Shown here piece by piece: positions 259-47,048 of a stretch of 64,000 bases of DNA; position 1 is the first letter of the stretch, and every line of letters starts with the position of its first letter. The translations under genes and the position numbers were made by a program. Origin of the DNA: Rhodocyclales bacterium (GTDB taxonomy: Bacteria > Pseudomonadota > Gammaproteobacteria > Burkholderiales > Rhodocyclaceae). Below the pieces are notes generated by a model. It saw nothing but the letters and a program-made list of their open reading frames with translations. It ran no database searches and had not been told where the DNA came from. The stretch lies in NCBI GenBank assembly GCA_016235805.1, contig JACRIY010000046.1:1-64000 (forward strand), written 5' to 3'.

Positions 259-282
259 GCCGTGTCGCCGGCGCCGACTTTC
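259..282 (+). repeat. Dispersed 24-bp motif, copy 1 (plus orientation)
   Basis: Matches the consensus GCCGTGTCGCCR + GCGCCGACTTTT except for the last base. It lies in the intergenic gap between tusA and dsrE2, 60 bp after the tusA stop. Confidence 0.85.
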
Positions 283-441
283 AAAGCATCCTCTCGGATA
301 TTCCAGTCCGAAATCGGTCTGGGAGCGCTAAATGCCCACACAATTATTATTGGCTATCCGGGTATAGAAAAATTCGTCTGGATGCTGCGCTGCACTTTAT
401 CAGACTATTCGGAATTGGTCATATAGGCAGGGAGCAGAGAT

Positions 442-1056
442 ATGGGCGCAATCCCCGAAATCGCAAGCATCGACGAACTGGTCAATCGCCGGCTGGAAGA
501 ACTTCTGCCGCAGAAGATCGAAGAAGCTCTGCGCGAGCGCGAGGAGTCGAAGACACCCTCGATGGCGATCATCGCCACCCGCGGTACGCTGGACTGGGCC
601 TATCCGCCATTCATCCTCGGTTCCACCGCTGCTGCACTGGGCTGGGACGTGTCCATCTTCTTCACCTTCTACGGGCTGAACCTGCTCAAGAAGGATGTTT
701 CCGACCTGAAAGTCAGCCCGCTCGGCAACCCCGGCATGCCGATGAAAATGCCGTTCGGCCCGGACTGGTTCAAGGGCATCAACTGGAACATTCCCAACAT
801 CATCCAGGCCGGCGTGCCGGGTTTCGAAACCGTGGCCACCATGCTGATGCAACAGACCATAAAGAACAATGGCGTCGCCACCATCGAAGAACTGCGCGGC
901 CTGGCCCAGGAGGCCGATGTCAAGTTCATCGCCTGCCAAATGACGGTGGATTTGTTCGGATTTCACCACGACGACTTCGTTCCCGGACTCGACTTCGCCG
1001 GAGCGGCGACCTTCCTGCCCGTGGCCCAGAAGGCCGACGTCAGCCTGTTCATGTAG
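442..1056 (+). CDS. DsrE2-type DsrE/F-like sulfur-transfer protein
   Basis: 204 residues. Residues 1-38 are a charged, probably helical leader (many E, K, R). The DsrE-fold core follows, with MAIIATRGTLDWAYPPFI at about 41-58 and a hydrophobic stretch SIFFTFYGLNLL at 71-82. A cysteine at 165 (IACQMTVDLFG) is the likely persulfide-carrying residue of the family. Proteins of this type are small, partly membrane-associated sulfur-trafficking proteins usually encoded beside tusA and sometimes a rhodanese. An RBS-like GGGAGCAGAG precedes the ATG. The family call rests on residue pattern and on the neighbouring tusA. Confidence 0.85.
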   Translation: MGAIPEIASIDELVNRRLEELLPQKIEEALREREESKTPSMAIIATRGTLDWAYPPFILGSTAAALGWDVSIFFTFYGLNLLKKDVSDLKVSPLGNPGMPMKMPFGPDWFKGINWNIPNIIQAGVPGFETVATMLMQQTIKNNGVATIEELRGLAQEADVKFIACQMTVDLFGFHHDDFVPGLDFAGAATFLPVAQKADVSLFM

Positions 1057-1171
1057 CAGGAAGGCAACACAAGTTCAGCCGACCCGGCGGTTCGTCTGGA
1101 CTTCATGAATCGCTTCGGTTTATACCTATAACTTGTTGAAATTTATCTAACACCCTCGGGGAGATGTTCGA

Positions 1172-2566
1172 ATGAAACTGAAAAAAATCGCAGCACTGGT
1201 AGCTATTGCCGCCGCATCCGGCTCGGCCTTCGCCACGGATGGCTATTTTGCGCATGGTTATGGCATGAAAGCCAAGGGCATGGGCGGAGCGGCGACCGCG
1301 ATGGCATCCGACTCCTTCGGTGGCGCCAACAACCCTGCCAGCATGGTTTGGGCTGGTGACCGGCTGGATGTCGGGCTGGACTTCTTCTCCCCAAAGCGAA
1401 CGATCAGCCGAAGCGGCGGAACTGCTGGAATCGATTTCCAGGCGGAAAGCGGTAGCAACATGCACTACGTGCCCGAATTCGGCTACAACAAGATGCTGGG
1501 CTGGGATATGTCGCTGGGCGTTACGGTGTACGGGAACGGCGGCATGAATACGGACTTTCCGGGCGGCCAGATCAGTACCGCACCCGGTTCAACGGTAACG
1601 TGTCCCGGCTTCAACGGCATGGCCGGTGCGGTCGCTGTTGGTGCTCCGTTCAACGCCCTTTGCGGCAGCGGACGGCTTGGCATCGACATGATGCAACTGG
1701 TTGTTGCTCCGACCTTTGCGATGAAGGTCAACAAGACGAACTCCCTGGGTGTGGCCCTGTTGCTCACCCACCAGCAGTTCAAGGCCAGCGGCCTGCATGG
1801 TTTCGGTGGCTACACTGCAACCGCGACCACCGGCGGTCCCTCGAACCTGACCAATCTCGGTCGCGACAAATCCAATGGCGTCGGACTGCGATTCGGCTGG
1901 ATGGGTCAGTTGAGCGATACGGTAACAATGGGCGCCGCCTATGCGACCAAGACCCGGATGAGCAAGTTCGACCTGTACAAGGATCTTTTCGCTGAGCGGG
2001 GTGGATTCGACCTTCCCGAGAATTGGAACATCGGCCTTGCATTCAAGCCGAATGACCAATGGACGATCGCCGCTGATTTCCAGCGGATCAACTACGGCGA
2101 TATCAATTCCGTCGGAAATCCGAGTACCAATGGCGGCCTGACCATCGGACCTGGCGCGCCGGGACCGTTCGCCGCTGCGGGCGGAACGCTTGGCTGCGAC
2201 AGTTGCCGCGGCTTCGGCTGGAGCAATGTCGATGTCATCAAGCTAGGTTTCGAGTACAAGTACAGCAATGCCCTGACGCTGCGAGCCGGTTACAACCACA
2301 CCGACAATCCGATATCGTCGCGCGACGTCACGTTCAACATGCTTGCGCCCGGCGTCGTTCAGGACCATGTCACGCTTGGCTTCACCTACAACGTGACCAA
2401 GGATTCGGAGCTGACCATGGCCTACATGCACGCATTCAAGAAATCGGTTTCCGGCACCAGCCTGTTCAATCAATGGACCACTGCATTCGGCATGGGAACG
2501 GCGGGCACCGACAAGATCGAGATGTCGCAGAATTCACTTGGCATCGCCTACGGTCTCAAGTTCTGA
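1172..2566 (+). CDS. FadL/OmpP1/TodX-family outer-membrane channel
   Basis: 464 residues with a signal peptide ending near residue 21 (AFA before TDGYFAHGYG). The mature N-terminus has the plug pattern of FadL proteins, including GYGMKAKGMGGA and then a GGANNPASM-type block (about residues 30-58). The rest alternates like a beta-barrel and ends LGIAYGLKF with the terminal aromatic typical of outer-membrane proteins. The family imports hydrophobic molecules across the outer membrane: fatty acids or aromatics in studied cases. Here it lies among sulfur-transfer and SQR-like genes, so a hydrophobic sulfur compound is a possible but unproven cargo. RBS GGGGAG precedes the ATG. Confidence 0.88.
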   Translation: MKLKKIAALVAIAAASGSAFATDGYFAHGYGMKAKGMGGAATAMASDSFGGANNPASMVWAGDRLDVGLDFFSPKRTISRSGGTAGIDFQAESGSNMHYVPEFGYNKMLGWDMSLGVTVYGNGGMNTDFPGGQISTAPGSTVTCPGFNGMAGAVAVGAPFNALCGSGRLGIDMMQLVVAPTFAMKVNKTNSLGVALLLTHQQFKASGLHGFGGYTATATTGGPSNLTNLGRDKSNGVGLRFGWMGQLSDTVTMGAAYATKTRMSKFDLYKDLFAERGGFDLPENWNIGLAFKPNDQWTIAADFQRINYGDINSVGNPSTNGGLTIGPGAPGPFAAAGGTLGCDSCRGFGWSNVDVIKLGFEYKYSNALTLRAGYNHTDNPISSRDVTFNMLAPGVVQDHVTLGFTYNVTKDSELTMAYMHAFKKSVSGTSLFNQWTTAFGMGTAGTDKIEMSQNSLGIAYGLKF

Positions 2567-2605
2567 TCGGCTGAGGCCGTTCGGAATGCCGCAAGTCTGA
2601 CCGGC

Positions 2606-2637
2606 AAGGGCTGGAAGCGAACGCGCTTTCAGCCCTT
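2606..2637 (+). terminator. Strong stem-loop after the FadL-type gene
   Basis: A 14-bp stem (AAGGGCTGGAAGCG with CGCTTTCAGCCCTT, one G-U) closes a 4-base loop about 40 bp after the stop codon. The T-tract is poor (TTGTT). Probably a terminator or mRNA 3'-end protector. Confidence 0.6.
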
Positions 2638-2739
2638 GTTCCATTCAACGCGCAGTTCGCGTCGGGCGTCGATCCAGACCGCCCGGCAGGACAGCATCGT
2701 CCAAAAATTACATTTTCGAAACTTCCCAAGGAGAGAGAC

Positions 2740-3651
2740 ATGTCCAGATTTCTTAACAGCATTGCCGTGTTGATCATGGCGCTGTTCGCTGCAGCGGCAT
2801 TCGCGCAGGATGTCGTGCTGAAGCCCTTCGTCCTTGCCTCGAAAGGGGCGGGCGACGTCGCGCAAAAAGTTGACGCCACGAAAGCTGCGCTGACCAAGGC
2901 CGGCTTCGTCGTTGCCGGCAGCTATTCGCCCTACGCGAACACGACCGTCATCGGCGTGACCAACGACGAATTGCGCGGCACGGCCGCCAAATCGGAGCAT
3001 GGCGGCTTCGGTGCGGCGATGCGCGTGGCGGTGGTCAAGGTGAAGGATGAGGTGCAGGTTTCCTATACCAACCCGCCCTACTGGGCCAACGTATATCGCA
3101 TGAATGGCGAGTTGAAGGACACTGCCGCCAGGCTGCAGGCGGCCTTGGGCAAGGTCGAGGAATTCGGCGCCAAAGGCCTGACCGCGGAGCAGTTGCGCAA
3201 GTACCACTACGCCTTCGGCATGGAGTACTTCAACGAGCCGAACGAGTTCGTCAAGTACGGCAGCCACGAGGAGGCGGTCAAGGCCGTGGAAGCGGGCCTC
3301 GCGGCGGGCAAGCAGGGCGTGACCAAGGTCTATCGCGTTGACGTCGCCGGCAAGAAGGAAGTCCTGTTCGGCGTCGCGATGAAGGGCGCGGGCGACAGCA
3401 AGATGATGGACGACGCCTACCTGATGAGCGAGATCGACTTCAAGGACGTCAAGTCCGCGGCGCACCTGCCCTATGACATCCTGGTATCTGACAATACCGT
3501 CTTCGCCCAGTACGCGCGCTTTCGCATCGCCGTCAGCTTTCCCGATCTTTCGATGATGGGCGCCAACAGCTTCATGAACATCATGAAGTCGCCCGAGGCT
3601 ATCCGCGAAGCGCTATCGCTCACCGTCGGCGGCAAGAAGGACGCGCGTTGA
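2740..3651 (+). CDS. Secreted protein with DUF302-like N-terminal region, function unknown
   Basis: 303 residues. A clear signal peptide ends around residue 22 (AFA before QDVV). The segment at about 35-115 has the look of a DUF302 domain: an amphipathic helix with AALTKAGF, then VAGSYSPYANTTVIGVTNDEL and VKVKDEVQVSYTNPPYWANVY. The second half is rich in Lys/Glu helices and has no motif I recognise. RBS AAGGAGAG lies 7 bases before the ATG. It lies between the FadL-type porin and the SQR-like flavoprotein on the same strand, so a periplasmic role in the same process is plausible. DUF302 membership is a resemblance, not a proven match. Confidence 0.8.
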   Translation: MSRFLNSIAVLIMALFAAAAFAQDVVLKPFVLASKGAGDVAQKVDATKAALTKAGFVVAGSYSPYANTTVIGVTNDELRGTAAKSEHGGFGAAMRVAVVKVKDEVQVSYTNPPYWANVYRMNGELKDTAARLQAALGKVEEFGAKGLTAEQLRKYHYAFGMEYFNEPNEFVKYGSHEEAVKAVEAGLAAGKQGVTKVYRVDVAGKKEVLFGVAMKGAGDSKMMDDAYLMSEIDFKDVKSAAHLPYDILVSDNTVFAQYARFRIAVSFPDLSMMGANSFMNIMKSPEAIREALSLTVGGKKDAR

Positions 3652-3679
3652 TTCGCTAAGCCGATCCGGCAACTGCATC

Positions 3680-3703
3680 GCCGTGTGGCCGGCGCCGACT
3701 TTT
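3680..3703 (+). repeat. Dispersed 24-bp motif, copy 2 (plus)
   Basis: One mismatch to the consensus (GTGTGGCC instead of GTGTCGCC). Intergenic, 28 bp after the stop of the preceding secreted-protein gene. Confidence 0.85.
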
Positions 3704-4977: not shown

Positions 4978-7803
4978 TCAGCCCAGGCGCTGCCTTTGCG
5001 CCACGAGCTTCACCAGCGTGGCCTGGAAGCCGGCGAGGCGTTCACGCTCCTGCGCCACCACGGCGGCGGGGGCGCGGGCGACGAAGCTTTCGGTGGCGAG
5101 CTTCTTCTCGGCCTTGCCGATCTCGCCTTCGATGCGCAGGATCTCCTTGCCCATGCGTTCACGTTCCGCCGCCACGTCGATCTCGATCTTCAGCATCAGG
5201 CGGAATTCGCCGACGATTTGCACCGGTGCGTCGGAATCCGGCAGCGTTTCCGCCGCGGTCACTTCGGAGAGCTTGGCCAGGGCGGCGAGGTAGGGCGCGT
5301 AGGCGCCCAGGATTGCCGTGTCGCCAGCGCCGACTAATGGCACCTTCTGCGCCGGCGAGATGTTCATCTCGCCGCGCAGGCTGCGGCAGGCGTTGATCAT
5401 GTCCTTCAGCCTTGCCACCCAGGCTTCGGCCGCGGCATCGCAACGCGAGAGGTCGGCCTTCGGGTAGGGCTGCAGCATCAGCGAACGCGACTCGTCGGCG
5501 GCGTCCGCGCGGCCGGCAATCGGGGCCACCGTCTGCCAGAGTTCTTCGGTGATGAAGGGGATCAGCGGGTGCGCCAGGCGCAGCACGGTTTCCAGCACGC
5601 GCACCAGGGTGCGCCGCGTCGCGCGTTGCTGCGCCTCACCGCCGCCCTGGATCTGCACCTTGGCCAGTTCCAGGTACCAGTCGCAGTATTCGTCCCAGAC
5701 GAACTCGTAAATGCCGCGCGCCAGCAGGTCGAAGCGGTAGTCGGCGAAATGCTGCGCGACTTCCTGCTCGACCTTCTGCAGGCGGCTGACGATCCAGCGG
5801 TCGGCCTGGGAGAAATCAAGGTAGCTGCCGGTGCAGGCGTCGGAACCGTGCTCGGCGAGGCCGCAATCCTGACCCTCGCAATTCATCAGCACGAAGCGCG
5901 AGGCGTTCCACAGCTTGTTGCAGAAATTGCGGTAACCCTCGCAGCGCTGCATGTCGAACTTGATGTCGCGCCCCGGCGAGGCCAGCGAAAGGAAGGTGAA
6001 GCGCAGCGCGTCGGTGCCGAAGCCGGGAATGCCATCGGGGTATTCCTTGCGCGTGCGCTTTTCGATCTTGGCCGCGTCCTTCGGATTCATCAGGCCCGTG
6101 GTGCGCTTCTTCACCAGTTCATCGAGCGTGATGCCGTCGATCAGGTCGATCGGGTCGAGCACGTTGCCCTTGGACTTGCTCATCTTCTGGCCTTCCGCGT
6201 CGCGGATCAGGCCGTGCACGTAGACGTCCTTGAACGGAATCTTGCCGGTGATGTGCTTCGTCATCATCACCATGCGCGCCACCCAGAAGAAGATGATGTC
6301 GAAGCCGGTGACCAGCACCGTCGAGGGCAGGTAGAGGTCCAGCGCCGTGTTCGACTTGGCCGGCCACTCCGGTGTCCAGTCCAGCGTGGAGAAAGGCCAC
6401 AGGGCCGACGAATACCAGGTGTCGAGCACGTCCGGATCGCGTTCCAGGCCGCCCGTGTAGCCGTCGCGTTTGGCCTGGGCATAGGCCTCGGCTTCGTCGT
6501 GGGCGACGTAGAAGCGCCCGTCGTCCGAGTACCAGGCCGGTATCTGGTGGCCCCACCAGAGCTGGCGCGAGATGCACCAGTCCTGGATGTTGTTAAGCCA
6601 CTGGTTGTAGGTATTGACCCAGTTCTCCGGGACGAATTTGATCTCGCCCGAGGCCACGCATTCCAGTGCCTTGCCGGCGATGCTGCTGCCATCGGCGCCG
6701 GGTTTGCTCATGGCGACGAACCACTGGTCAGTGAGCATGGGCTCGATCACCGCGCCGGTGCGGTCGCCGCGTGGCACCATCAGCTTGTGCGGCTTCACGC
6801 TGGCCAGCAGGCCGGCCGCCTCGAGGTCGGCGACGATCGCCCGGCGCGCCTCGTAACGGTCCATGCCGCGGTACTTCTCGGGGCCGTGTTCGTTGATGCG
6901 CGCGTCCAGCGTCAGCACGCTGATCGGCGTGAGGCCGTGGCGGTGGCCGACCTGCCAGTCGTTGAAGTCGTGCGCCGGGGTGATCTTGACGCAGCCGGTG
7001 CCGAATTCCTGGTCCACGTAGCTGTCGGCGATGACCGGGATGGTGCGCTCGCACAGCGGCAGTTGTACCTGTTTGCCGATCAGGTGCTTGTAGCGGTCGT
7101 CGTCGGGATTGACCGCCACCGCGACGTCGCCGAGCATGGTTTCGGGGCGCGTGGTCGCCACGGTCAGCGACCCCTTGCCGCAGGCGATGGGATAGTGGAT
7201 CTCCCACATCGAGCCGTCTTCCTCCTCGCTGACCACTTCGAGATCGGACACGGCCGTGAGCAGCTTCGGGTCCCAGTTCACCAGGCGTTTGCCGCGGTAG
7301 ATCAGGCCTTCGTTGTACAGGCGGACGAAGGTCTCGGTGACGATCTTGGACAGGCCCGCGTCCATCGTGAAGCGCTCGCGCGACCAGTCGGGCGAGGTTC
7401 CCAGGCGGCGCATCTGGCGCGTGATGGTGTCGCCGGAGTATTTCTTCCATTCCCAGACTTTTTCGAGGAATTTCTCGCGTCCGAGGTCGTGGCGCGACTG
7501 GCCCTGGGCGTCGAGTTGCCGCTCGACGACGATCTGCGTCGCGATGCCGGCGTGGTCGGTGCCAGGCTGCCACAGCGTGTTGTCGCCGCGCATGCGGTGG
7601 TAGCGCGTCAGCGAATCCATGATCGCCTGGTTGAAGCCGTGGCCCATGTGCAGGGTGCCGGTGACGTTCGGCGGCGGCAGCAGGATGCAAAAATTTTCGG
7701 TCTTTGCAGTGTCGAGTCCGGCGGCGAAATAGCCGCGCGACTCCCAAACCGGGTACCAGCGTCGCTCGATGTCGGCGGGTTCGAAGCTCTTGGCGAGTTC
7801 CAT
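4978..7803 (-). CDS. valS: Valyl-tRNA synthetase
   Basis: 941 residues, the normal length. The class I signatures are present: HMGH at 52-55 and KMSKS at 540-544, with an [10 protein letters not shown] block just before the first. The large editing domain lies between them, followed by the anticodon-binding domain and a C-terminal coiled coil (about 880-941, ending [12 protein letters not shown]). It charges tRNA-Val with valine in the cytoplasm and hydrolyses mischarged threonine. It converges on the SQR-like gene with a 14-bp gap. Residues about 824-830 (VGAGDTA) are encoded by an inverted copy of the dispersed 24-bp motif. Confidence 0.98.
5315..5338 (+). repeat. Dispersed 24-bp motif, copy 3 (plus), inside valS
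   Basis: Perfect through GCCGACT, then AAT. Read antisense by valS as LVGAGDTA, in the loop of the anticodon-binding domain where ValS sequences vary. Confidence 0.8.
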
Positions 7804-9309: not shown

Positions 9310-9804
9310 GTGGGCCGGGCTTGCTTCATCGCGCTGGGCGCCAATCTCGGGGACCCGGTGGCGACGGTCAATGCCGCAATCATCGCCCTGCGCCAGCTGC
9401 CGCACACGCGGTTTGTCGCCGCGTCCTCGCTTTACCGCACCGCGCCGGTCGGCCTCAAGCACCAGCCCGACTTCATCAACGCCGTGGTGGCCGTCGATGC
9501 CGTATCGCCGGCGCCGACTCTGCTGCAGGACCTGTTCGACATCGAGGCGCGCTTCGGCCGCAGCCGCGGCGTGAAGAACGCGCCGCGCACGCTGGATCTC
9601 GACCTGCTGCTTTACGGCGACGAGGCGTCGGACGATCCACGGCTGACGCTGCCGCATCCGCGCCTCCATGAACGTGCCTTCGTGCTCGCACCGCTGGCCG
9701 AGATCGCGCCCGACTTGTTCATTCCGGGGCGCGGCCTGGTGCGTGAGCTGCTGGCGCGCTGCGCCGACCAGCAGATCGAGAAGCTGGTATCGCAGACCGC
9801 CTGA
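9310..9804 (+). CDS. folK: HPPK, 6-hydroxymethyl-dihydropterin pyrophosphokinase
   Basis: 164 residues from GTG 9310. An alternative GTG at 9271, overlapping pcnB, adds a low-complexity MAPPTPRRPAKAE and has AGGAGG directly against it, so the start is uncertain. Family blocks: FIALGANLGDP at the N-terminus, the substrate block APVGLKHQPDFINAVV, and the signature RTLDLDLLLYGD. It makes 6-hydroxymethyl-7,8-dihydropterin diphosphate for folate synthesis. Residues 64-71 (AVSPAPTL) are encoded by a sense copy of the dispersed motif, at a place where E. coli FolK has a segment of the same length. Two bases separate the GTG from the pcnB stop region, so translation is probably coupled. Confidence 0.95.
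   Translation: MGRACFIALGANLGDPVATVNAAIIALRQLPHTRFVAASSLYRTAPVGLKHQPDFINAVVAVDAVSPAPTLLQDLFDIEARFGRSRGVKNAPRTLDLDLLLYGDEASDDPRLTLPHPRLHERAFVLAPLAEIAPDLFIPGRGLVRELLARCADQQIEKLVSQTA
9499..9522 (+). repeat. Dispersed 24-bp motif, copy 4 (plus), inside folK
   Basis: GCCGTATCGCCG then GCGCCGACTCTG. Read in sense by folK as AVSPAPTL. Confidence 0.8.
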
Positions 9805-14871: not shown

Positions 14872-17800
14872 TTGATTGAGCTTCCGGCACTGCGCCTTCT
14901 ATTCCTGCTTGCGACCCTGGGCTTCGTCACATCCCAGGCATTTGCGCAATCGGCCAACCCCGCGCCTGCTCCTGGCGCAGGGAAGCCGCAGGTCCAGGTC
15001 TTCGTCCTGCATTCCTATAGCCAGGAGTATCCGTGGACGCGGGGACAGCACGAGGGTTTCATGGCCGCGCTCGATGCGGACACGGGGCGTAGCTATGACG
15101 TACGTGTCGAATACCTCGATACCAAGCGCGCCGGTTACGGCAGCGACTATGCGCGCCTGATCGCAGGACACCTGCGGGCCAAGTATGCCGGCTATCGGCC
15201 GGCCGCCATCTATGTTTCCGACGACAATGCGCTGTCTTTCGCCCTCGTACACCTGGAACGAATCTTCCCGGACGTACCGGTGTTCTTTTCCGGGGTCAAC
15301 GATTACACGATCAAGACCCAACTCGACCCGCGGCGAGTCACCGGCGTATTCGAAAACAAGGAGATCGGCCCCAACCTGGCCCTGATCCGGACGATCGCCG
15401 AGGAGCGCCAGGATATCGTTGTCATCGGCGACGCCAGCGAAACCTACCGCGCCATAGAAAGCGAGGTACGTGCCGAGCTGCACCGGCATCCCGGCGTGCA
15501 GGCCAGCTTCGTGTCGGGCAAGCGGATCGATGAGCTGATCGCCAAGCTGAACAAGGCCCGCGCCCGCTTCGTCTTTCTCACCACGCTGGGTGCGGTGGTC
15601 GATGCCACGGGGCGTACCCTGAGCCTGCCGGAAACACTGGATGCCATTGTCCGCAGCGGCGATTTCATCATCCTCAGCATGGAGGATGCCTACCTTCAGA
15701 AGGGAGTACTCGGTGGCTGGGTCACCAGCGGCCCGCGCCAGGGGAAGGCCGCGGCCGAATTGCTGCGTCGTCATCTGGACGGCGCGTCGCTCGATGCGCT
15801 GCCGCCGATCGAGGAAAGCCCGAACGAATACGTGTTCGACGACCTGGAACTGGAGAGAGTGGGGCTCACGCTGCCGCCGGAGGTCGACCGGCGTGCACAC
15901 CATGTGAATGTCCAGCCCGGCTTCTACGCGGCCAATCGCCCGATTGTGCTCGGTGTCCTGTATGGCATGTTTGCCGTGGTGCTACTGGGACTGCTGTGGA
16001 CCGTGCTTGCCTACGCGCACAAGAATCGACTGATACTCGCCACCTCGCGCCGGCTTGCGGAAAGCGAGGCACGCTTTCTTGCGACTTTCGAGCAGGCGGC
16101 CGTGGGCATAGCGCAGGTGGCGCCGGACGGCACCCTGTTGCGCGTTAACCGGCGCTTTTGTGACATCGTCGGCTACCGTCGCGAGGAACTGCTCGACAAG
16201 ACCTTCCTCGACATTACCCATCCCGACGACGGGGACCTCCACCGCGACAAGGTGCGCGCCTTGCTGGCGCGGGAAATCGAGTTCTTTGCCGTCGAAAAGC
16301 GTTACCTGCGCAAGGATGGCGAGGTGGTCTGGATCAACCTGACGCTCGCGGTAACCTGGAACGCCGACGGCACGCCCGACTACTTCATTTCCGTGATCGA
16401 GGACATCAGCGATCGCAAGCAGGCGGCGGAAGCGCTGCGGCGCGGCGAGGAGGAGCAGCGGACACTGATCGCATCCCTGCCTGACGTCATCATGCGTTTC
16501 GATGCCGATGAGCGGCACCTGTTCGTTTCGGAGAATGTCTACGAACTGGTTGGCATGCCGGCGACGGCGTTCATCGGCAAGACCCATCGCGAACTGGGAT
16601 TTCCGGAGCCTCTCTGCGAACAATGGCAGGGCGCGCTCAAGGCGGTGTTCGACGGCGGCACGGCGCACGAGACCGAGTTCACCCTGGATGGGCCGGAAGG
16701 CAGCCGCACCTTCAGCTGGCGGCTGGTGCCGGACATGGACCGATCAGGCCGGGTGCGCACCGTGCTGACCCTTGCACGCGACATCACGGAGCGCAAGGAA
16801 AGCGAGTCGAGGCTAGAGGACTATCGGCAGCATCTCGAACAGATGGTCGAGGAGCATACCGCCGCGCTCTCCATCGCCAAGGAGGCAGCGGAGGCCGCCA
16901 GTCGCGCCAAGAGCACCTTCCTCGCCAACATGAGCCACGAGCTGCGCACGCCGATGAACGTCATCATGGGCATGACGAACCTGGCGTTGCGCCGCGTCAC
17001 CGATCCGCGCCTGACCGAACTGCTGACCAAGGTCGACAGGGCCTCGCGCAACCTGCTCGCCGTCATCAATGACATTCTCGACATCTCCAAGATCGAAGCC
17101 GAGCGGCTGAGCCTGGAGCAGGTCGACTTCACGCTGGACGACGTGCTGAACAACCTGTCGGCGCTGATCGGGCACAAGGTCGCGGAAAAGGGCCTCGGCC
17201 TGCACATCGACGTGACCCCCGACGACGCGCGGCGGCAGCTCAAGGGCGATCCGTTGCGGCTGGGGCAGATCCTGCTCAACCTGGCCGGCAACTCCGTCAA
17301 GTTCACCGACGCCGGCAGCATATCGGTGCGGGTCCGGGTCGAGGAACTCGGCGGTGACGACCTGCGGCTGCGGATCGACGTCAAGGACACCGGCATCGGC
17401 ATCGCCGCCGAGGACCAGAAGCGGCTGTTCACCGCCTTCGAACAGGCCGACGGCTCGATGACCCGCAAGTACGGGGGCACCGGGCTGGGGCTGGCCATCA
17501 GCCGGCGCCTGGCGCGGATGATGGGCGGCGACATCGAGGTCAGCAGCCGGCCGGGGGCTGGCAGCACCTTCCGACTGCACGTGACGCTGCAGAAGGCCAC
17601 CGGCGCCGTGGCGCCAGCGCCGACTTCCGGGCCGGGCACGGCGGAAGCGCGGCTGCAGGCGCAATTCGGCGGTACCCGGATCCTGCTCGCGGAAGACGAG
17701 CCGACCAACCGGGACGTGGCGCGCTGGCTGCTGGAGGACCGGGGGTTGGTGGTGGACCTGGCCGAGGACGGAATGCAGGCGGTGGACCTGGCCGGGCAGA

Positions 17801-19658: not shown

Positions 19659-19682
19659 GCCGTAGTGTCAGCGCCGACTTTT
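19659..19682 (+). repeat. Dispersed 24-bp motif, copy 6 (plus)
   Basis: GCCGTAGTGTCA then GCGCCGACTTTT. It lies between the FGGY kinase and the FAH-family gene, 6 bp beyond the stop codon of the latter. Confidence 0.75.
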
Positions 19683-23492: not shown

Positions 23493-25031
23493 CTATTTCT
23501 TGCCGAAGCCGCCGAGCAGGGCCGCCACGGGGCGTTGCGGGCGGGTGGGAACCGGCTTTTCCGCGGCCACTTCAGCGGGGGCAGACTTGCTGACATAGGG
23601 CTTGTTCGGATCGAAGTCGAGCTTGGGCAGTCGCGGGTCGAAGCGGGGCACGTGGGATACGGGCGTCGGCAGTTCGCGCCCGGCGGGTTTGACGCCTTCC
23701 AGCGTCAGCGCACGATCGCGCTCGCGGGCTTTCTCGCGGGCCCGTTCGAGGTGCTCGCGCTTGTGGCCGCGATTGCTCGGTGCACGTTCGGGCGGCGCGG
23801 AGGCCAGCTCGGCGAAGCCGCTGATTTCGACGCGCTCGATCTTGCGCTTGATCAGTTTTTCGATGTCGGCCAGGCGCTGCGCTTCTTCGGGGGCGAACAG
23901 CGAGGTGGCGTCGCCATGCTTGCCGGCACGGCCGGTGCGGCCGATGCGATGCACGTAGTCCTCGGCGGTATGCGGCAGTTCGTAGTTGATGACGTGCGGC
24001 AGGTCGTCGATGTCGAGGCCGCGCGCGGCGACGTCGGTGGCGACCAGCACGCGGATCTTGCCGGACTTGAAGCCTTCCAGCGCTTCGGTGCGCTGCTGCT
24101 GGCTCTTGTCGCCGTGGATGGCGTCGGCGGCGATGCCCTGGCGTTCGAGATAGACGGCGAGGCGGCTGGCGCCGAACTTGGTGCCGACGAAGACCAGCAC
24201 CTGCTTGGTCTTTTCATCGTCGTGGGTCATGAGGTGCACCAGCAGGCTGCGCTTGAGGTCGGAGGCGACCGGATAGACGCGGTGGGTGATGGTCTCGGAG
24301 ACGGCGTTGCGGCGCGCCACCTCGATCAGTTGCGGCGCCTTCAGCATGCTGTCGGCGAGGTTCTTGATCTCGTTGGAGAAGGTGGCGGAGAACAGCAGGC
24401 TCTGGCGCTCCTTGGGCAGCATGGCGAGGATGCGCTTGATGTCGGGGATGAAACCCATGTCCAGCATGCGGTCGGCTTCGTCGAGCACCAGCACCTCGAC
24501 CTGGGCGAAGGAGACGCTCTTCTGCTCCACGTGGTCGAGCAGGCGGCCGGGCGTGGCGACGACGATCTCGCGGCCCTCGCGCAACTGGGCGATCTGCGGC
24601 CGGATGTCCACGCCGCCGTAGATGCAGACCGAGCGCAGCGGCAGATGCTTGCTGTAGGTGACGACGCTTTCGTGCACCTGCATCGCCAGTTCGCGCGTCG
24701 GCGCCAGGATCAGGGCGCGCACCGGGTGCCGCGCCGGCGAGGGCGAGGAACTGGCGTACTTGGCCAGGCGCTGCAGCAGGGGCAGGGTGAAGCCGGCGGT
24801 CTTGCCGGTGCCGGTTTGCGCGCCGCCCATGACGTCCTTGCCGGCCAGGATGATGGGGATGGCCTGGCTCTGGATCGGTGTCGGGTGGGTGTAGCCGTTG
24901 TCTTTGACGGCGCGCAGCAACTCGGGCAGCAGGCCGATTTCGTCAAAAGTCGGCGCTGGCGCTGCGGCGACGGCGTCTGTTTCTGCAATGGGATCGGAGG
25001 GTGTGGCGGGGGCTTGTGTGATCGCGTTCAA
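23493..25031 (-). CDS. rhlE: DEAD-box ATP-dependent RNA helicase RhlE
   Basis: 512 residues from a TTG at 25031, preceded by AGGAG with 5-base spacing. The reading frame extends upstream to 25163 but has no ATG or family residues before the core. Motifs: F-x-x-x-GL Q-motif (FDEIGLLPELL at 29-39), AQTGTGKT at 71-78, PTRELA, DEAD (VLDEADRMLDMGF), SATF, HGDKSQ, and HRIGRTGRAG. The C-terminal tail is basic, as in RhlE proteins of cold response and ribosome assembly. Residues 24-30 (APAPTFD) are encoded by the dispersed motif, just before the conserved core. A hairpin overlaps its Shine-Dalgarno (see 25039). Confidence 0.95.
   Translation of the reverse strand: MNAITQAPATPSDPIAETDAVAAAPAPTFDEIGLLPELLRAVKDNGYTHPTPIQSQAIPIILAGKDVMGGAQTGTGKTAGFTLPLLQRLAKYASSSPSPARHPVRALILAPTRELAMQVHESVVTYSKHLPLRSVCIYGGVDIRPQIAQLREGREIVVATPGRLLDHVEQKSVSFAQVEVLVLDEADRMLDMGFIPDIKRILAMLPKERQSLLFSATFSNEIKNLADSMLKAPQLIEVARRNAVSETITHRVYPVASDLKRSLLVHLMTHDDEKTKQVLVFVGTKFGASRLAVYLERQGIAADAIHGDKSQQQRTEALEGFKSGKIRVLVATDVAARGLDIDDLPHVINYELPHTAEDYVHRIGRTGRAGKHGDATSLFAPEEAQRLADIEKLIKRKIERVEISGFAELASAPPERAPSNRGHKREHLERAREKARERDRALTLEGVKPAGRELPTPVSHVPRFDPRLPKLDFDPNKPYVSKSAPAEVAAEKPVPTRPQRPVAALLGGFGKK
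24945..24968 (-). repeat. Dispersed 24-bp motif, copy 7 (minus), inside rhlE
   Basis: GCCGCAGCGCCA then GCGCCGACTTTT on the minus strand. Read in sense by rhlE as AAAPAPTF, directly before the Q-motif. Confidence 0.8.
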
Positions 25032-27433: not shown

Positions 27434-27895
27434 TCAGGCGAAATCCGGATTGAGCACGGCCCGCAGTATCGTTTCCCGGCGTCCATTCCGGCTGCGGCCG
27501 CCGAACCACCAGACGCTACCCTTCTTGACCGCCCAGTCGTCCTCCCGGCCGGCCAGCAGCAGGGCCGCGACCCGCCCCAGCGTGGGCTGGTGGCCGACGA
27601 TCAGCACGGCGCCGTCGCCGTCCGGCCAACCGGCCGCCGCCAGTATCGCCGTCGCCGTGGCGCCGGCGCCGACTTTTGGTTCGACTTCATAGGCCAGCCT
27701 CAGTGCGTGCGCCGTCTGCCGTGTACGTTCGGTGGGGCTGGCGAGGATCGTCAGCTTGCGCGGCAACCGGTTTTGCAGCCAGCGTGCGACCTGTTTGGCC
27801 TGTTTTTCGCCGCGTTGCGTAAGGCGGCGTTCGTGATCGGGGCGGATGCCGTCGCCATCCTCGGCTTCCGCATGACGCCAGAGTATCAAGTCCAT
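27434..27895 (-). CDS. sixA: Phosphohistidine phosphatase SixA
   Basis: 153 residues. The catalytic RHG-like motif is LILWRHAEAEDGDG at the N-terminus, with a second His in VGHQPTLGR. The RHxE form and short length are SixA-like. It removes phosphate from histidine phosphotransfer domains in E. coli. The next gene on the strand upstream encodes a CYTH-CHAD protein, a partnership seen in polyphosphate-linked clusters. Residues KVGAGATA are encoded by an antisense copy of the dispersed motif. Confidence 0.92.
   Translation of the reverse strand: MDLILWRHAEAEDGDGIRPDHERRLTQRGEKQAKQVARWLQNRLPRKLTILASPTERTRQTAHALRLAYEVEPKVGAGATATAILAAAGWPDGDGAVLIVGHQPTLGRVAALLLAGREDDWAVKKGSVWWFGGRSRNGRRETILRAVLNPDFA
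27654..27677 (+). repeat. Dispersed 24-bp motif, copy 8 (plus), inside sixA
   Basis: GCCGTGGCGCCG then GCGCCGACTTTT. Read antisense by sixA as KVGAGATA. Confidence 0.8.
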
Positions 27896-29501: not shown

Positions 29502-29525
29502 GCCGTGACGCCGGCGCCGACTATT
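29502..29525 (+). repeat. Dispersed 24-bp motif, copy 9 (plus), containing a stop codon
   Basis: GCCGTGACGCCG then GCGCCGACTATT. On the minus strand its bases 29521-29523 are the TAG stop of the ABC permease gene. Confidence 0.8.
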
Positions 29526-31653: not shown

Positions 31654-33189
31654 CTAGAACAGGCGCGGACCGGGCATGCCGGAAGCCTTCGGGGTCGCCG
31701 CGCTTAGCTGGCCGGTGATGACTTCCTGAGCTTCCTTGATCTCGCCGGAGACGACCTCGGTCATGCTGCCGTCGGTGAGGCCGAGGCGCAGTTCGACCGC
31801 CTTCGGCTTGCCGTCCTCGCCGACGATCCAGATGCGACCGGTACCGCCGCCTCCGCCGGAGCGCGCGGCGGCAGCCTGCGCGCCGAGTTCGTCGTAGCGC
31901 AGCTTCTGTTCCGGGGTCAGCATCGCCGAAACCTTTTCGCGGATTTCGGCGCGGTTGCGTTCCTGCGCCTTGGACTTTTCCGCCTCAGGCAGGTCGCGCG
32001 CGGCCATGAACTTATCGCGCATGCCGGCGAAGATCGCGTCGAGCTTGCCCTGCTGGTCGGCATCGAGCTTAAGCTCCGCGACCAGGCGCTCCCTGAGCTG
32101 CGCGGTCCCGCCGCCGCCAGAAGTCGGCGCTGGCGACACGGCGGCCGGGGTCGCTGTCGAGGGCTTCTTTTCATCGGTGGTGCCGGCGGGCCGATAGCGC
32201 AGCGCCGCATTGGGAACCTTGAGCACCTTGTCCTTTTGCGCCGTGATGATGCGCACGTTGGCCGTCATGCCCGGCAGCAGAGTAAGGTCGGGGTTCGCCG
32301 CAGAGATGACCACGGTATAGGTGACGACGTTGGAGACCACCGTGGCCGCCTTGCGCACCTGGCGCACTTCGCCTTCGAAATGGCGGCCGGCGAAGGCATC
32401 CACGGTGAACGTGGCCTTCTGTCCGAGGCGGACGCGGCCGACGTCGGCCTCGTCGATCGAGGTTTCCACCTGCATGTCGGTCAGGTTCTTGGCGATGACG
32501 AACAGCTCCGGTGCCTGCAGGCTCGCCGCCACGGTCTGTCCGGGCTCGATGCTGCGCTTAACCACTACGCCGTCGACCGGCGCGGTGATCGAGGTGCGCG
32601 TCAGGTCCACGCGCGCCGCCGCCAGTTGCGCTTCGCGCTGGCGCACGATGGCTTCGCCGTTCTTTACCTGCGCCTCGGCCGAGGCCAGCGAGGCGCGGGC
32701 GGCATCCAGGCTGTTCTGCGCCGTATCGCGCTCGGCCGGAGAGATGAATTTCTTCTCCACCAGAGTTTTCTTGCGTTCGTAATCGCGCTGGGCATTCGAC
32801 AGGTTGGCGCGGGCGCGGGCCACTTCGGCCTGTTGCACGCCCTGCGCGGCGCGCGCGGCGTCCACGTCCGCCTCGGCCTGGCGCACCCGATGCTGGTAGG
32901 TTTCCGGATCGAGGCGCGCGATCAGCTGGCCGGACTTCACCGGGGAGTTGAAGTCGACCAGGATTTCCTTGATCTGCCCGGAGACCTGCGAGCCGACCTG
33001 GACCGAGACGACGGGGTTCAAGGTGCCGGTCGCGGAAACCGCCGCCGTGAGCGGTCCGGATTCGACCTTGGCCAGCTTGTATTTCGTCGCATCGGAGCCG
33101 TTGCCGCCAGTCCGCCAGGCCAGCACGCCGCCCCCGGCGACGGCGGCAATGATCAGCGCGTAGAGTCCGAGGCGCGAGGATGTTTTCAT
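31654..33189 (-). CDS. MacA-like periplasmic adaptor with an inserted LTxxQ-type segment
   Basis: 511 residues, much longer than a normal MacA (about 370). N-terminal membrane helix (about 8-26), biotinyl-lipoyl halves (VSVQVGSQVSGQIKEILVDF), a coiled-coil hairpin (about 95-200, with RANLSNAQRDYERKKTL) and beta-barrel. At about 349-356 an AVSPAPTS linker is encoded by the dispersed motif. It is followed by a Gly-rich link and a helical segment (about 363-435) with LDADQQGKLDAIFAGMRDK and MLTPEQKLRYDEL, like the LTxxQ repeats of Spy/CpxP chaperones. The membrane-proximal domain then finishes the adaptor. It links the ABC pair to an outer-membrane factor. Confidence 0.9.
   Translation of the reverse strand: MKTSSRLGLYALIIAAVAGGGVLAWRTGGNGSDATKYKLAKVESGPLTAAVSATGTLNPVVSVQVGSQVSGQIKEILVDFNSPVKSGQLIARLDPETYQHRVRQAEADVDAARAAQGVQQAEVARARANLSNAQRDYERKKTLVEKKFISPAERDTAQNSLDAARASLASAEAQVKNGEAIVRQREAQLAAARVDLTRTSITAPVDGVVVKRSIEPGQTVAASLQAPELFVIAKNLTDMQVETSIDEADVGRVRLGQKATFTVDAFAGRHFEGEVRQVRKAATVVSNVVTYTVVISAANPDLTLLPGMTANVRIITAQKDKVLKVPNAALRYRPAGTTDEKKPSTATPAAVSPAPTSGGGGTAQLRERLVAELKLDADQQGKLDAIFAGMRDKFMAARDLPEAEKSKAQERNRAEIREKVSAMLTPEQKLRYDELGAQAAAARSGGGGGTGRIWIVGEDGKPKAVELRLGLTDGSMTEVVSGEIKEAQEVITGQLSAATPKASGMPGPRLF
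32119..32142 (-). repeat. Dispersed 24-bp motif, copy 10 (minus), inside the MacA-like gene
   Basis: GCCGTGTCGCCA then GCGCCGACTTCT on the minus strand. Read in sense as AVSPAPTS, in the linker before the LTxxQ segment. Confidence 0.8.
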
Positions 33190-34954: not shown

Positions 34955-35055
34955 GGAGGACTCCAGGGCTGAGTCTGAGGGTAGACATCAATTCCCGTTT
35001 TGAGGGAAACATCCCACCAGGGGATACCGTCCGCAGCGCTGAGCCGCGGACATAA

Positions 35056-35079
35056 GAAGCCTGGCCGAGGCCAGGCTTC
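35056..35079 (-). terminator. Perfect 11-bp hairpin between soxX and soxB
   Basis: GAAGCCTGGCC and GGCCAGGCTTC flank a 2-base loop in the 140-bp soxX-soxB gap. Only TTAT follows on the minus strand, so it may give partial termination or stabilise the upstream mRNA. Confidence 0.6.
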
Positions 35080-39752: not shown

Positions 39753-39800
39753 AAAAGTCGGCGCCCCAAAGGGACTTCCTGCGGTCGCTGGCGACACGGC
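39753..39800 (-). repeat. Dispersed 24-bp motif, copy 11 (minus), split by about 24 bp
   Basis: On the minus strand, GCCGTGTCGCCAGC (39787-39800) and GCGCCGACTTTT (39753-39764) are both perfect to consensus but separated by extra sequence that ends in CCTTTGGG. A GCG occurs at both junctions. It lies between kup and tRNA-Leu. Confidence 0.7.
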
Positions 39801-40928: not shown

Positions 40929-43066
<2,138 letters not shown>

Positions 43067-43102
43067 TTCACCGGTTCTGTCCGACAATCCTGGAGATACA
43101 CA

Positions 43103-43520: not shown

Positions 43521-45389
43521 ATGAATCGCTATCCTCTCTGGAAGAATGCCACGGTCCTGATCGCCCTGGTGCTCGGCCTGCTGTACACCCTGCCCAACTT
43601 TTTTGGCGAGGCGCCCGCCGTGCAGGTGGCCAGCGTCAAGGCGACGCACAAGGTCGACGCGCGGCTGATGTCGCAGGTGGAGGCGGCGCTCAAGGCCGCC
43701 GCGGTGACGCCGCAGGGCGTGGTGCTCGACCTCAACAGCATACGGGTGCGCCTGGCCGACACCGATACCCAGCTCAAGGCCAAGGACGCCATCGAGAAAG
43801 CGCTGAATCCGGTGGCGGCGGAGGCGAGCTACAGCGTCGCGCTCAACCTGGTATCCGACTCGCCCAACTGGCTGAGCGGAATCCATGCGCTGCCGATGTA
43901 TCTCGGCCTCGACCTGCGTGGCGGCGTGCACTTCCTGTTGCAGGTGGACATGAAGGGCGCCCTGACCAAGCGGCTCGATTCGATCGGCGCCGATTTGCGC
44001 GGCCTGATGCGCGACAAGAACATCCGCCATGGCGGCATCGTGCGCGAAGGCCAGACGGTGGCGATCCGTTTCCGCGACGCGGAAGCCCGCGACAAGGCGC
44101 GCGCCGTGCTGAACGACAGCCAGCCCGACCTGCAACTGGTCGACGCCCAGGACGGTGCCGATTTCCGTTTGGTGGCGACCCTCAAGCTGCAGGCCGAGAA
44201 GCGCATCCAGGAGTTCGCGGTGAAGCAGAACATCACGACCCTGCACAATCGCATCAACGAACTCGGCGTCGCCGAACCGGTGATCCAGCAGCAGGGCATC
44301 GACCGGATCGTGGTGCAGCTGCCCGGCGTGCAGGACACCGCCAAGGCGAAGGACATCCTGGGCCGCACGGCGACCCTGGAAGTACGCATGGTCGACGACG
44401 AGGCCAGCGCCAACATGGACATCATGGAGCAGGCGGCGCGCGGCCAGCCGCCCCCGGGCACCGAGTACTACATCGAGCGTGGCGGGCGCGGCCTGCTGGT
44501 CAAGAAACAGGTGGTACTGACCGGCGAGCGGCTGACCGACGCCCAGGCTGGATTCGACAGCCAGACCCAGGAGCCGGCGGTGCATTTGTCGCTCGACTCC
44601 TCCGGCGCGCGCATCTTCAAGGACGTGACGCGCGAGAGCGTCGGCAAGCGCATGGCGATCCTGCTGATCGAGAAGGGCAAGGGAGAAGTGGTCACCGCTC
44701 CGGTGATTCGCACGGAGATCGGCGGCGGCCGGGTGCAGATCTCGGGGCGCATGAGCACCGTCGAGGCGAATGACGTGGCCCTGTTGCTGCGCGCGGGATC
44801 GCTTGCGGCGCCGATGGAGATCATCGAGGAGCGCACGGTCGGTCCCAGTCTCGGCGCCGACAACATCGCCAAGGGCTTCAACTCGACGATGTGGGGCTTC
44901 ATCGCCATCTCGGTGTTCATGATCTCGTACTACCTGCTGTTCGGGGTCGTCTCGGTCCTGGCGCTGTCGGCCAACCTGCTGTTCCTGGTGGCGCTGCTGT
45001 CCCTGCTGCAGGCGACGTTGACGCTGCCCGGCATCGCCGCCATCGCCCTGACGCTGGGCATGGCGATCGACGCCAACGTGCTGATCAACGAGCGGGTGCG
45101 CGAGGAGTTGCGCGGCGGCAATTCGCCGCAGGCGTCGATCACCGCCGGCTACGAACGCGCCTGGGCCACCATCCTGGATTCGAACATCACCACCCTGATC
45201 GCCGGCGTCGCCCTGCTGATCTTCGGTTCCGGCCCGGTGCGCGGCTTCGCGGTGGTGCATTGCCTGGGCATCCTGACCTCGATCTTCAGTTCGGTCGTGG
45301 TCTCGCGCGCTCTGATCAACCTGATCTACGGCCACCGGCGCAAGCTGGGCTCGGTGAGCATCGGCCAGGTCTGGAAACCGGGAGTCTGA
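43521..45389 (+). CDS. secD: SecD, protein-export membrane protein
   Basis: 622 residues. A first membrane helix (about 8-28) is followed by a large periplasmic region with LGLDLRGGVHFLLQVD. The C-terminal five helices carry LTLPGIAAIALTLGMAIDANVLINERVREE, which includes the conserved Asp/Arg used in proton-driven translocation. It pulls proteins across the membrane after SecA/SecYEG. One base separates it from secF. Confidence 0.97.
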   Translation: MNRYPLWKNATVLIALVLGLLYTLPNFFGEAPAVQVASVKATHKVDARLMSQVEAALKAAAVTPQGVVLDLNSIRVRLADTDTQLKAKDAIEKALNPVAAEASYSVALNLVSDSPNWLSGIHALPMYLGLDLRGGVHFLLQVDMKGALTKRLDSIGADLRGLMRDKNIRHGGIVREGQTVAIRFRDAEARDKARAVLNDSQPDLQLVDAQDGADFRLVATLKLQAEKRIQEFAVKQNITTLHNRINELGVAEPVIQQQGIDRIVVQLPGVQDTAKAKDILGRTATLEVRMVDDEASANMDIMEQAARGQPPPGTEYYIERGGRGLLVKKQVVLTGERLTDAQAGFDSQTQEPAVHLSLDSSGARIFKDVTRESVGKRMAILLIEKGKGEVVTAPVIRTEIGGGRVQISGRMSTVEANDVALLLRAGSLAAPMEIIEERTVGPSLGADNIAKGFNSTMWGFIAISVFMISYYLLFGVVSVLALSANLLFLVALLSLLQATLTLPGIAAIALTLGMAIDANVLINERVREELRGGNSPQASITAGYERAWATILDSNITTLIAGVALLIFGSGPVRGFAVVHCLGILTSIFSSVVVSRALINLIYGHRRKLGSVSIGQVWKPGV

Positions 45390-45390
45390 G

Positions 45391-46362
45391 ATGGAATTTT
45401 TCCGCATACGCAAAGACATTCCCTTCATGCGCCATGCCCTGGTGTTCAACATCATCTCGTTGATCACCTTCCTCGCCGCGGTGTTCTTCCTGGCGACCAA
45501 GGGGCTGCATTTTTCGGTCGAGTTTACCGGCGGCACGCTGTTGGAAGTCAGTTATACCCAGGCGCCGGACCTGGGAAAGATCCGCCAGCAACTGGAAAGC
45601 GACGGCTTTGCCGATCCGCAGGTACAGAACTTCGGTTCCTCGCGCGACGTGCTGATCCGTGTGCCGCTGACCAAGGGCGCCGAAAGTTCCAAGGTCGGCG
45701 AGCAGGTCATGGCCTCGTTGATGAAAGTTCCCGAAGGGACGCAGAGTGCCGGCGCTGGCGGCACTGCCTCGGCGATGACGCCGCAGCTCAAGCGGGTCGA
45801 GTTCGTCGGTCCCCAAGTCGGCAAGGAACTCGCCGAAGACGGCGCGCTGGCCCTGCTGCTGGTGATCGTCGGCATCGTGCTGTATCTGGCGTTTCGCTTC
45901 GAGTGGCGCTTCGCCGTATCCGCCATCATCGCCAACCTGCATGACGTTGTGATCATCCTCGGCTTCTTCGCTTTCTTCCGGTGGGAGTTTTCCCTGCCGG
46001 TGCTGGCCGCCGTGCTGGCGGTACTGGGCTATTCGGTGAACGAATCGGTGGTGGTCTTCGACCGCGTGCGCGAAACCTTCAAGAAGAAACGTGGCATGAC
46101 GACGCCGCAGGTGCTCGACCACGCCATCACCAGCACTATTTCGCGCACCATCATCACCCATGGCTCGACGCAGATGATGGTCACTTCCATGTTGATCTTC
46201 GGTGGCGCGGCGCTGCACTATTTCGCGCTGGCCCTGACCATCGGCATCTGTTTTGGCATCTACTCCTCGGTGCTGGTCGCCAGCCCGCTGGTGATGTGGA
46301 TGGGCGTGTCGCGCGAGCAGTTCGTCAAGCCCAAAGCCGAGAAGCAGGAGGCCGTCGTCTGA
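45391..46362 (+). CDS. secF: SecF, protein-export membrane protein
   Basis: 323 residues, six helices. Blocks FSVEFTGGTLLEVSY near the start and LGYSVNESVVVFDRVRETFKK in the middle (SecF signature). Residues SAGAGGTA are encoded by a weak copy of the dispersed motif. The TGA stop shares its A with the ATG of the cytochrome b gene. Confidence 0.97.
   Translation: MEFFRIRKDIPFMRHALVFNIISLITFLAAVFFLATKGLHFSVEFTGGTLLEVSYTQAPDLGKIRQQLESDGFADPQVQNFGSSRDVLIRVPLTKGAESSKVGEQVMASLMKVPEGTQSAGAGGTASAMTPQLKRVEFVGPQVGKELAEDGALALLLVIVGIVLYLAFRFEWRFAVSAIIANLHDVVIILGFFAFFRWEFSLPVLAAVLAVLGYSVNESVVVFDRVRETFKKKRGMTTPQVLDHAITSTISRTIITHGSTQMMVTSMLIFGGAALHYFALALTIGICFGIYSSVLVASPLVMWMGVSREQFVKPKAEKQEAVV
45744..45767 (-). 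repeat. Degenerate candidate copy of the dispersed motif (minus), inside secF
   Basis: On the minus strand it matches the core CGCCAGCGCCG but differs at four or more other positions. Read antisense as SAGAGGTA. It may be ordinary GC-rich code. Confidence 0.35.
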
Positions 46363-47048
46363 TGCAGCGCATCCTGGTCTGGGACCTGCCGCTGCGGCTG
46401 TTCCATTGGCTGCTGGTGGTATGCGTAACGGGTTCCTTCGTCAGTGCGAAGATCGGCGGCAACGCGATGGTCTGGCATGGCCGCTTCGGCCTGGTCGTGG
46501 TGGGCTTGCTGGTATTCCGGCTAATCTGGGGTTTTGTCGGTTCGACCTACGCCCGCTTCTTCCAGTTCGTGCGCGGACCCGCTGGCATCATTGCCTACAT
46601 TCGTGGCCAGTGGCACGGCGAAGGCCACAACCCGCTAGGCGCGCTTTCCGTTCTGGCCATGCTCGGCACCCTGCTTCTGCTGGTGGCGACTGGCTTGTTC
46701 TCGAATGACGACATCGCCTTCGAAGGCCCGTTGTATGCGCTGGTTGGCAAGGATCTGTCGGATCGCGTGGTGGGCATCCACCGCCTGGTCGAACCACTGA
46801 TCATCCTGCTGGTGGTGGCGCACCTTGCCGCGATCGCCTTCTATGTTCGGATCAAGAAGGAAACCCTGATCATGCCAATGATCACCGGTAGAAAGGTCGG
46901 CGCTGGCGATACGGCGCAAGGCGGCGGCGCGATTGCTTTCTGCATTGCGCTGGCAATGGCCTTGGGAGCTGCATACGGAGCCAGCGGTGCCTGGATCACT
47001 TTGCCACCCCAGGCGACTCCGCCGCCTGCTGCCGCACCGAACTGGTAA
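46362..47048 (+). CDS. Cytochrome b561-family membrane protein
   Basis: 228 residues. Four membrane helices in the first 170 residues. Histidines suited to ligate haem b lie in LRLFHWLL (about 15), NAMVWHGRFG (about 40), QWHGEGHNPLG and VVGIHRLVE (about 140), plus AHLAAIAFY. This is the b561/YodB-type pattern that passes electrons between quinol and periplasmic partners. After MITGRK the segment KVGAGDTA is encoded by an antisense copy of the dispersed motif. A short Pro/Ala tail ends the protein. It shares the secF TGATG, so it is coupled to secF, and faces a cytochrome c' gene. Confidence 0.9.
   Translation: MQRILVWDLPLRLFHWLLVVCVTGSFVSAKIGGNAMVWHGRFGLVVVGLLVFRLIWGFVGSTYARFFQFVRGPAGIIAYIRGQWHGEGHNPLGALSVLAMLGTLLLLVATGLFSNDDIAFEGPLYALVGKDLSDRVVGIHRLVEPLIILLVVAHLAAIAFYVRIKKETLIMPMITGRKVGAGDTAQGGGAIAFCIALAMALGAAYGASGAWITLPPQATPPPAAAPNW
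46891..46915 (-). repeat. Dispersed 24-bp motif, copy 13 (minus), inside the cytochrome b gene
   Basis: GCCGTATCGCCA then GCGCCGACCTTT on the minus strand. Read antisense as KVGAGDTA. Confidence 0.8.

Follow-up and report, generated by a model that had tools for sequence, protein, structure and literature searches.

A dispersed motif of 24–26 bp recurs on both strands in a 64,000-nucleotide stretch of DNA from a bacterium of the family Rhodocyclaceae (assembly GCA_016235805.1, contig JACRIY010000046.1, positions 1 to 64,000; hereafter the window) and in the chromosomes of a limited set of its relatives. Judged from sequence, the motif probably serves a clade of Rhodocyclaceae as its self-recognition DNA uptake sequence, a reading to which we assign a probability of about 0.6. 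This reading is favoured by the genus-specific spellings of the motif, its erosion in a species nested within the genus, the absence of a replication-strand bias, its depletion in atypical genes and the presence of terminator-like inverted pairs.

Alignment of sites indicated that the motif is slightly longer than 24 bp, reading ~(A/G)TCGCCGTnYCGCCRGCGCCGACTyTy, with sharp edges. The initial annotation had described a dispersed 24-bp motif, and its existence was borne out: a 24-mer search of the window returned 11 copies with up to three mismatches, where an order-5 Markov simulation predicts 0.0032, and none in 100 dinucleotide-shuffled versions of the window. Nor are the copies confined to the window, as its own genome (G000, 3.83 Mb) contains 489 (238 on the plus and 251 on the minus strand), while the reversed-pattern control gave 0. 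A closed relative, G002 (3.80 Mb), was sampled systematically in 40 stretches of 20 kb each, 800 kb in all, which contained 86 copies with up to three mismatches, compared with 0.04 expected. Positions 6, 7, 12, 22 and 24 are soft in G002, and the information content of its sites is about 37 bits, a value inflated by the 4-mismatch limit. Genome-wide the motif is sparser than the annotated frequency of one copy per 4–5 kb, at one per 7.8 kb in G000 (up to three mismatches); in the G002 sample the density is one per 5.6 kb when up to five mismatches are allowed.

The taxonomic range of the motif is narrow. Among 25 genomes of the same genus, 24 contain 104–578 copies and the remaining one, G016, contains 20, while among 297 Rhodocyclaceae genomes at least 50 copies were found in 38 and at most 25 in 259, the former belonging to the genera g1, g24, g35, g54, g61, g62 and g80. 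The motif was matched in only 16 of 242 genomes that represent other families of the order, with a maximum of 4 copies. Stray single or clustered copies were noted outside the family (G390, G343, G485 and G505), and strays sharing one contig suggest imported segments. Among the matches listed for exact copies, most belong to Sulfuritalea, Sulfurisoma (S. sediminicola included), Rugosibacter, Rhodocyclaceae/Rhodocyclales and unplaced Betaproteobacteria records, and a few are labelled Burkholderiaceae, Gammaproteobacteria, Sulfurimicrobium or Thiobacillus. Viral-labelled IMG/VR contigs (L154, L162 and L164) carry several copies, two of which recur at a distance of 293 bp from each other.

The spelling of the motif differs by genus, so that the lineages may be said to use dialects. 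In G049 (genus g26), the top over-represented words found de novo were GGGACTGACTTTT, the context of which gives CGCCGTnyyGCnGGGACTGACTTTT, and canonical copies number 12, compared with 489 in G000. The GCCGTGTCGCCGGGACTGACTTTT spelling is present in 180 copies in G049 and in 16–153 in nine other g26 genomes; outside that genus it occurs 10 times in G000 and 3 times in G002, and among 17 further genomes it was counted in G152 (14), G105 (11), G062 (8), G047 (7) and G094 (1), with 0 in the other 12. The dialect of G084 ends in ...GCGTCGACTTTT, with the fuller form GCCGTGTC[TC]CCRGCGTCGACTTTT, and likewise emerged de novo as the top over-represented word, and G047 prefers GCCGTCTCGCC. Some genomes have few or no sites: 87 kb of G016 yielded only matches with 4–6 mismatches, G279 (g35) has no canonical copies and G191 (g26) has none of either the canonical or the g26 spelling. 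No substitute word was found de novo in samples of G062 (25 copies), G279 (78 kb) or G191 (151 kb), and no comparable replacement motif in 80 kb each of G083, G106, G044, G150, G096, G092 and G164. Other strong repeats seen in these genomes were CCCCAAA-type tandem words in G164 (L235–L238) and a GCTTGCTGTGGGAG repeat in G044 (L247–L250).

The distribution of sites was analysed in G002, in which a simple gene finder made for this work assigned 86.3 % of the DNA as coding and 13.7 % as non-coding. With up to five mismatches allowed, 142 sites were obtained, 90 of them inside genes, 49 between genes and 3 at gene edges; the 52 sites outside full gene bounds represent an excess over the non-coding fraction (p 7e-12). 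Most intragenic sites (65 of 90) are read in two frames, as K-V-G-A-G-D-T-A or A-V-S-P-A-P-T-F. Both strands carry the motif in the systematic stretches, and no replichore strand bias is apparent, with 58 leading- and 55 lagging-strand copies among 113 sites with up to four mismatches (origin and terminus placed by GC skew). Even spacing, proposed beforehand as a mark of a genuine signal, was found: the coefficient of variation of inter-site gaps is 0.67, compared with 0.87 ± 0.06 for random placement, and 1 of 2000 simulations was as even, the counts per stretch being Poisson-like. The tenth of genes with the least typical codon use is depleted (3 sites in 66 kb, p 0.0014), and from the least to the most typical quarter the densities are 0.137, 0.224, 0.198 and 0.180 sites per kb; codon bias serves here as a proxy for recent acquisition, and base composition may contribute to the depletion. 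Two inverted motif pairs, spaced 31–32 bp apart, are found between convergent genes and resemble terminators, their arms being complementary even at the soft positions, with folding energies of -56.6 and -50.1 kcal/mol.

The initial annotation had suggested that the motif spreads point-wise rather than by insertion. This was addressed by comparing 340 motif-spanning reading frames with ten genomes without, or nearly without, the motif, at the protein level since DNA-level alignments were too gappy (33 of 38 'absent' pairs gapped). Alignments covering the site numbered 62, from 50 sites, and 50, one per site, were inspected in full. The site window was ungapped in 42 of the 62, no gap spanned a whole motif in the 50 inspected (the largest gap on the motif-free side was 6 residues) and protein identity was 0.34 inside the motif window, compared with 0.55 beside it. 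For these reasons the idea of point-wise origin is mostly supported, in that sites appear to occupy tolerant, variable spots in genes and to have arisen mostly by substitution; it is qualified by gaps being twice as frequent within sites as beside them.

The valS gene provides an example of upkeep at the DNA level. The motif is present with up to four mismatches in 14 of 17 same-genus genomes, and in G006 and G017 an insert interrupts it. Of the 11 usable genomes of other genera, out of 13 compared, the length is unchanged in 8 and the canonical motif is present in 0; most genera show no indel. In 15 of the 17 same-genus genomes valS contains a TTA leucine codon, the last base of which is an invariant motif position, although TTA makes up 0.20 % of leucine codons in G002. 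The G016 gene has CTG instead and shows 7 mismatches to the motif with synonymous differences, yet it still encodes VPLVGAGD. In a valS tree of 27 genomes, with the motif region excluded, G016 groups with G010, G004 and G013 (support 0.93), within the genus. The tree, in which some nodes lack support, also places G084, a member of another genus, there beside G014 and G003. Because the TTA codon and motif are kept across the genus while G016 keeps the residues and loses the motif, the constraint in this gene seems to fall on the DNA rather than the protein and to have been relaxed in G016, an observation that concerns one gene in related, and so not independent, genomes.

If the motif is an uptake sequence, a protein at the tip of a type IV pilus would bind extracellular motif-bearing DNA, which would be preferentially imported and then recombined into the chromosome. 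Gene conversion after uptake would restore or spread sites, codons that are functionally fixed would exclude them, and joint drift of receptor and motif would generate genus-specific dialects, while loss of receptor specificity or of uptake would leave the sites to decay. Uptake bias together with recombination is proposed to account for the dispersal, strand neutrality and dialects, for tolerance-limited placement and scarcity in atypical genes, and for DNA-level upkeep and decay after loss. We put at slightly better than even the chance that the motif represents a third, separately evolved family of uptake sequences, belonging to environmental free-living Betaproteobacteria. In this reading the sequence spans 24–26 bp in two rigid half-sites, falls into three or more genus-level dialects and is recognised by a minor pilin, with natural losses in G016, G279 and G191, where sites are gone or eroding. 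Such a family in environmental bacteria, with its dialects and natural losses, would help to tell whether uptake specificity stems from mucosal life or from pilus biochemistry and molecular drive, and would supply new receptor–motif pairs for study.

Competence machinery for such uptake is plausibly present. ComEC, the sole competence gene looked for, was matched in 294 of the 297 family genomes (288 above the cut-off), and a ComP_DUS-family pilin was matched in 273. Of 27 genomes searched, 24 had a GspH/FimT match, and in 21 of these that gene adjoins the pilin gene, whether or not the motif is present. The pilin ends in CW(V/I)...C in most of the motif-bearing genomes examined, and four cysteines are present in several. 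An AlphaFold model of the pilin (mean pLDDT 83.7) gave weak matches to type IV pilin folds: none reached E 0.001, and Neisseria ComP (5hz7) stood at rank 4 (E 0.016). Since the same pilin type occurs in genomes that are motif-free or motif-poor (G279, G164, G062 and G016), the ComP-family/FimT-like pair stays a candidate motif receptor only.

Several observations weigh against a role in uptake. Neither ComEC nor the ComP-family pilin co-varies with the motif: both are equally present in motif-free relatives, including G279, and in motif-poor G016, and their presence or absence failed as a discriminator, both being near-universal in the 297 genomes. Inverted pairs are rare, with 2 among the 142 G002 sites and 0–3 exact-pattern hits per genome in 19 same-genus genomes, some of them not true pairs. 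Sites in genes are gapped in 20 of 62 alignments, compared with 53 of 349 control windows beside them. The density of one per 5.6–7.8 kb is below the roughly one per kb given for the uptake signal sequence (USS) of Pasteurellaceae in sections of PMC7811141, the motif is unusually long for an uptake sequence, and even spacing would equally suit a chromosome-structuring protein. A Y1 transposase (Y1_Tnp) tracks the motif within the genus (6 of 6 motif-rich genomes tested, absent from G016), a link that other genera break. Literature searches, incomplete for subscription papers, gave no transformation or binding data for motif-bearing species.

The main alternative, which we consider rather unlikely, is that the motif is bound inside the cell by an abundant nucleoid or chromosome-organising protein, several hundred sites per genome being kept by selection for even coverage of the chromosome. 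The spacing in G002, the length and high information content of the motif, its conservation as DNA in valS and its indifference to replication strand would all suit such a protein, but the wholesale change of spelling between genera is hard to reconcile with an essential organiser, as are the reduction to 20 copies in G016, the lack of canonical copies in G279 and of either spelling in G191. Moreover, scarcity in atypical genes and inverted pairs resembling terminators have been described for uptake sequences. Should the motif organise the chromosome after all, several hundred sites with dialects would likewise be unusual.

Another conversion-driven or recombination-linked signal, such as a very long hotspot or a nuclease site subject to biased repair without uptake, seems improbable. 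It would agree with a mostly substitutional spread and DNA-level upkeep, and some copies do carry short related inserts; however, no linked gene was found, and Chi is an octamer-type signal enriched on the leading strand, whereas the motif is divided 58 to 55 and, at 24–26 bp, is far longer. Less probable still is a repeat of the repetitive extragenic palindromic (REP) or bacterial interspersed mosaic element (BIME) kind, in which many short GC-rich copies are associated with a REP-associated tyrosine transposase (RAYT, of the Y1 type) that would spread them. The motif resembles such elements in its many short GC-rich copies and in a composite repeat of G118, in which parts of the motif alternate in orientation (17 of 18 exact-pattern places). 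In a test of 28 genomes, Y1_Tnp was matched in 10 that are motif-rich, among them all six of that kind from the same genus, and was missing from G016 and motif-free G279. Y1_Tnp was nevertheless unmatched in the motif-rich single-contig genomes G118 and G111 and the drafts G163, G103, G139, G084 and G292, and present in motif-free G096, G106, G150 and G044, so that no consistent RAYT association exists, and the motif occurs mostly as single intragenic copies (90 of 142 sites in G002) without an insertion signature. A mobile element was rejected as the source of the motif, as no whole-motif insertion was seen in the alignments inspected and the Y1 association is inconsistent across genera.

Some copies are interrupted. 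A split-motif scan found 8 cases in 1.88 Mb, compared with 2, 1 and 0 for three control patterns, a modest excess on its own in sequence partly chosen because it bears the motif; motif-free genomes gave 1 case in 0.56 Mb. In roughly 1.9 Mb of sequence, most of it motif-bearing, one insert family of 36 bp was seen five times, always adjoining motif halves, one of them eroded. Recurring short inserts (about 21–36 bp, at least two sequence families) lie mostly within motif remnants, and interrupted copies were also noted at L057, L070, L077, L129, L169, L263, L266, L377 and L382. The idea that the inserts are hairpins was dropped, as their folding is not clearly better than chance: 11 of 13 were matched by at least 15 % of shuffles and the best two by 41 and 11 of 500. 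The composite repeat, with motif-like parts and a spacer like CACCTCG (L356–L367), was found in G118 only among 30 genomes; it accounts for 17 of the 18 inverted-pair hits there and, within 240 kb of stretches largely chosen for containing it, for some 15 of 46 sites. A separate dispersed element, ATCCCACC(A/G)GGGGATACCGTC-hairpin-like-GACATAA, is sometimes tandem; it gave one hit in the window (~35000–35070), where Rfam shows no match, and 9 in the 800 kb of G002, and L259 and L276 are among the places that carry it.

The window copies are listed in Table 1. All 14 annotated places hold the motif or its split form on re-search, with one start, given as 46891, shifted by a base. The invariance of GCCG and GCGCCGAC holds in 12 of 12 intact copies, and the copy at 39753 is split as described; that at 45744, annotated as weak, does contain the motif, in split form. 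Positions 47000–64000 are motif-free and of lower GC content (0.54–0.61), yet carry core genes (LptF/G, PepA, IlvB, IlvC and LeuA type). As all ten proteins checked from 47–63 kb are of core type and a further copy lies at C24:80148 of the same genome, the gap after 47 kb is no demonstrated biological edge. An Rfam scan of the window at gathering thresholds gave no match, and a structured RNA was rejected, the single motif folding no better than shuffles.

Table 1. Copies of the motif in the window
Feature	Coordinates	Strand	Remarks
Motif copy, 1 mismatch	259..282	+	24-mer match
Motif copy, 1 mismatch	3680..3703	+	intergenic by gene calls made here
Motif copy, 2 mismatches	5315..5338	+	within valS (gene on minus strand; encodes VGAGDTA)
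Motif copy, 3 mismatches	9499..9522	+	within folK (HPPK)
Motif copy, 3 mismatches	17605..17628	+	within 1007-codon gene
Motif copy, 4 mismatches	19659..19682	+	between genes
Motif copy, 3 mismatches	24945..24968	-	between genes
Motif copy, 1 mismatch	27654..27677	+	within 154-codon gene
Motif copy, 2 mismatches	29502..29525	+	gene edge, downstream of tRNA-Glu
Motif copy, 1 mismatch	32119..32142	-	within HlyD-like gene
Split motif, 24-bp insert	39753..39800	-	split-motif scan
Motif copy, 2 mismatches	41726..41749	-	within queA
Split motif, insert ~21 bp	45723..45767	-	annotated as weak copy at 45744
Motif copy, 2 mismatches	46892..46915	-	within cytochrome b561 gene

The Neisseria DNA uptake sequence (DUS) is ATGCCGTCTGAA, and the motif variant GCCGTCT has seven letters in common with it. 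Excerpts of PMC12616744 state that such discrimination at uptake is known from no families but the Neisseriaceae and Pasteurellaceae; excerpts of PMC7811141 name the same two, with mucosal environments as a setting where a preference may matter. Literature searches, in which subscription coverage was incomplete, found no prior report of the motif or of uptake sequences in the Rhodocyclaceae group, and papers containing part of the motif concern unrelated subjects, judging by title and the start of the abstract.

According to sections of Frye et al. 2013 (PMC3630211), the DUS of the Neisseriaceae is 12 bp long, has ComP as its receptor and exists in dialects; inverted terminator-like pairs are described in passages of that paper and of PMC2397512, with high numbers reported in the former. 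Set against these accounts, the motif resembles the DUS in its dispersal on both strands within and between genes, its lineage dialects and permissive positions, its terminator-like pairs and scarcity in foreign DNA, and its betaproteobacterial hosts, but it is twice as long and several times sparser, has a different right half and forms few inverted pairs. Its hosts, moreover, are GC-rich and environmental, and a pilin is the candidate receptor. The USS of H. influenzae (Pasteurellaceae) has a 29-bp consensus in the portions of PMC1939737 and PMC7811141 consulted; features in common with the motif are a long consensus, a rigid core with a softer T-rich end, lineage-specific motifs and evolution by point mutation. 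Relative to the USS, the motif shows no evident sequence likeness, lacks the paired AT-rich flanks, is spaced at 5.6–7.8 kb rather than about 1 kb (PMC7811141) and belongs to another bacterial class.

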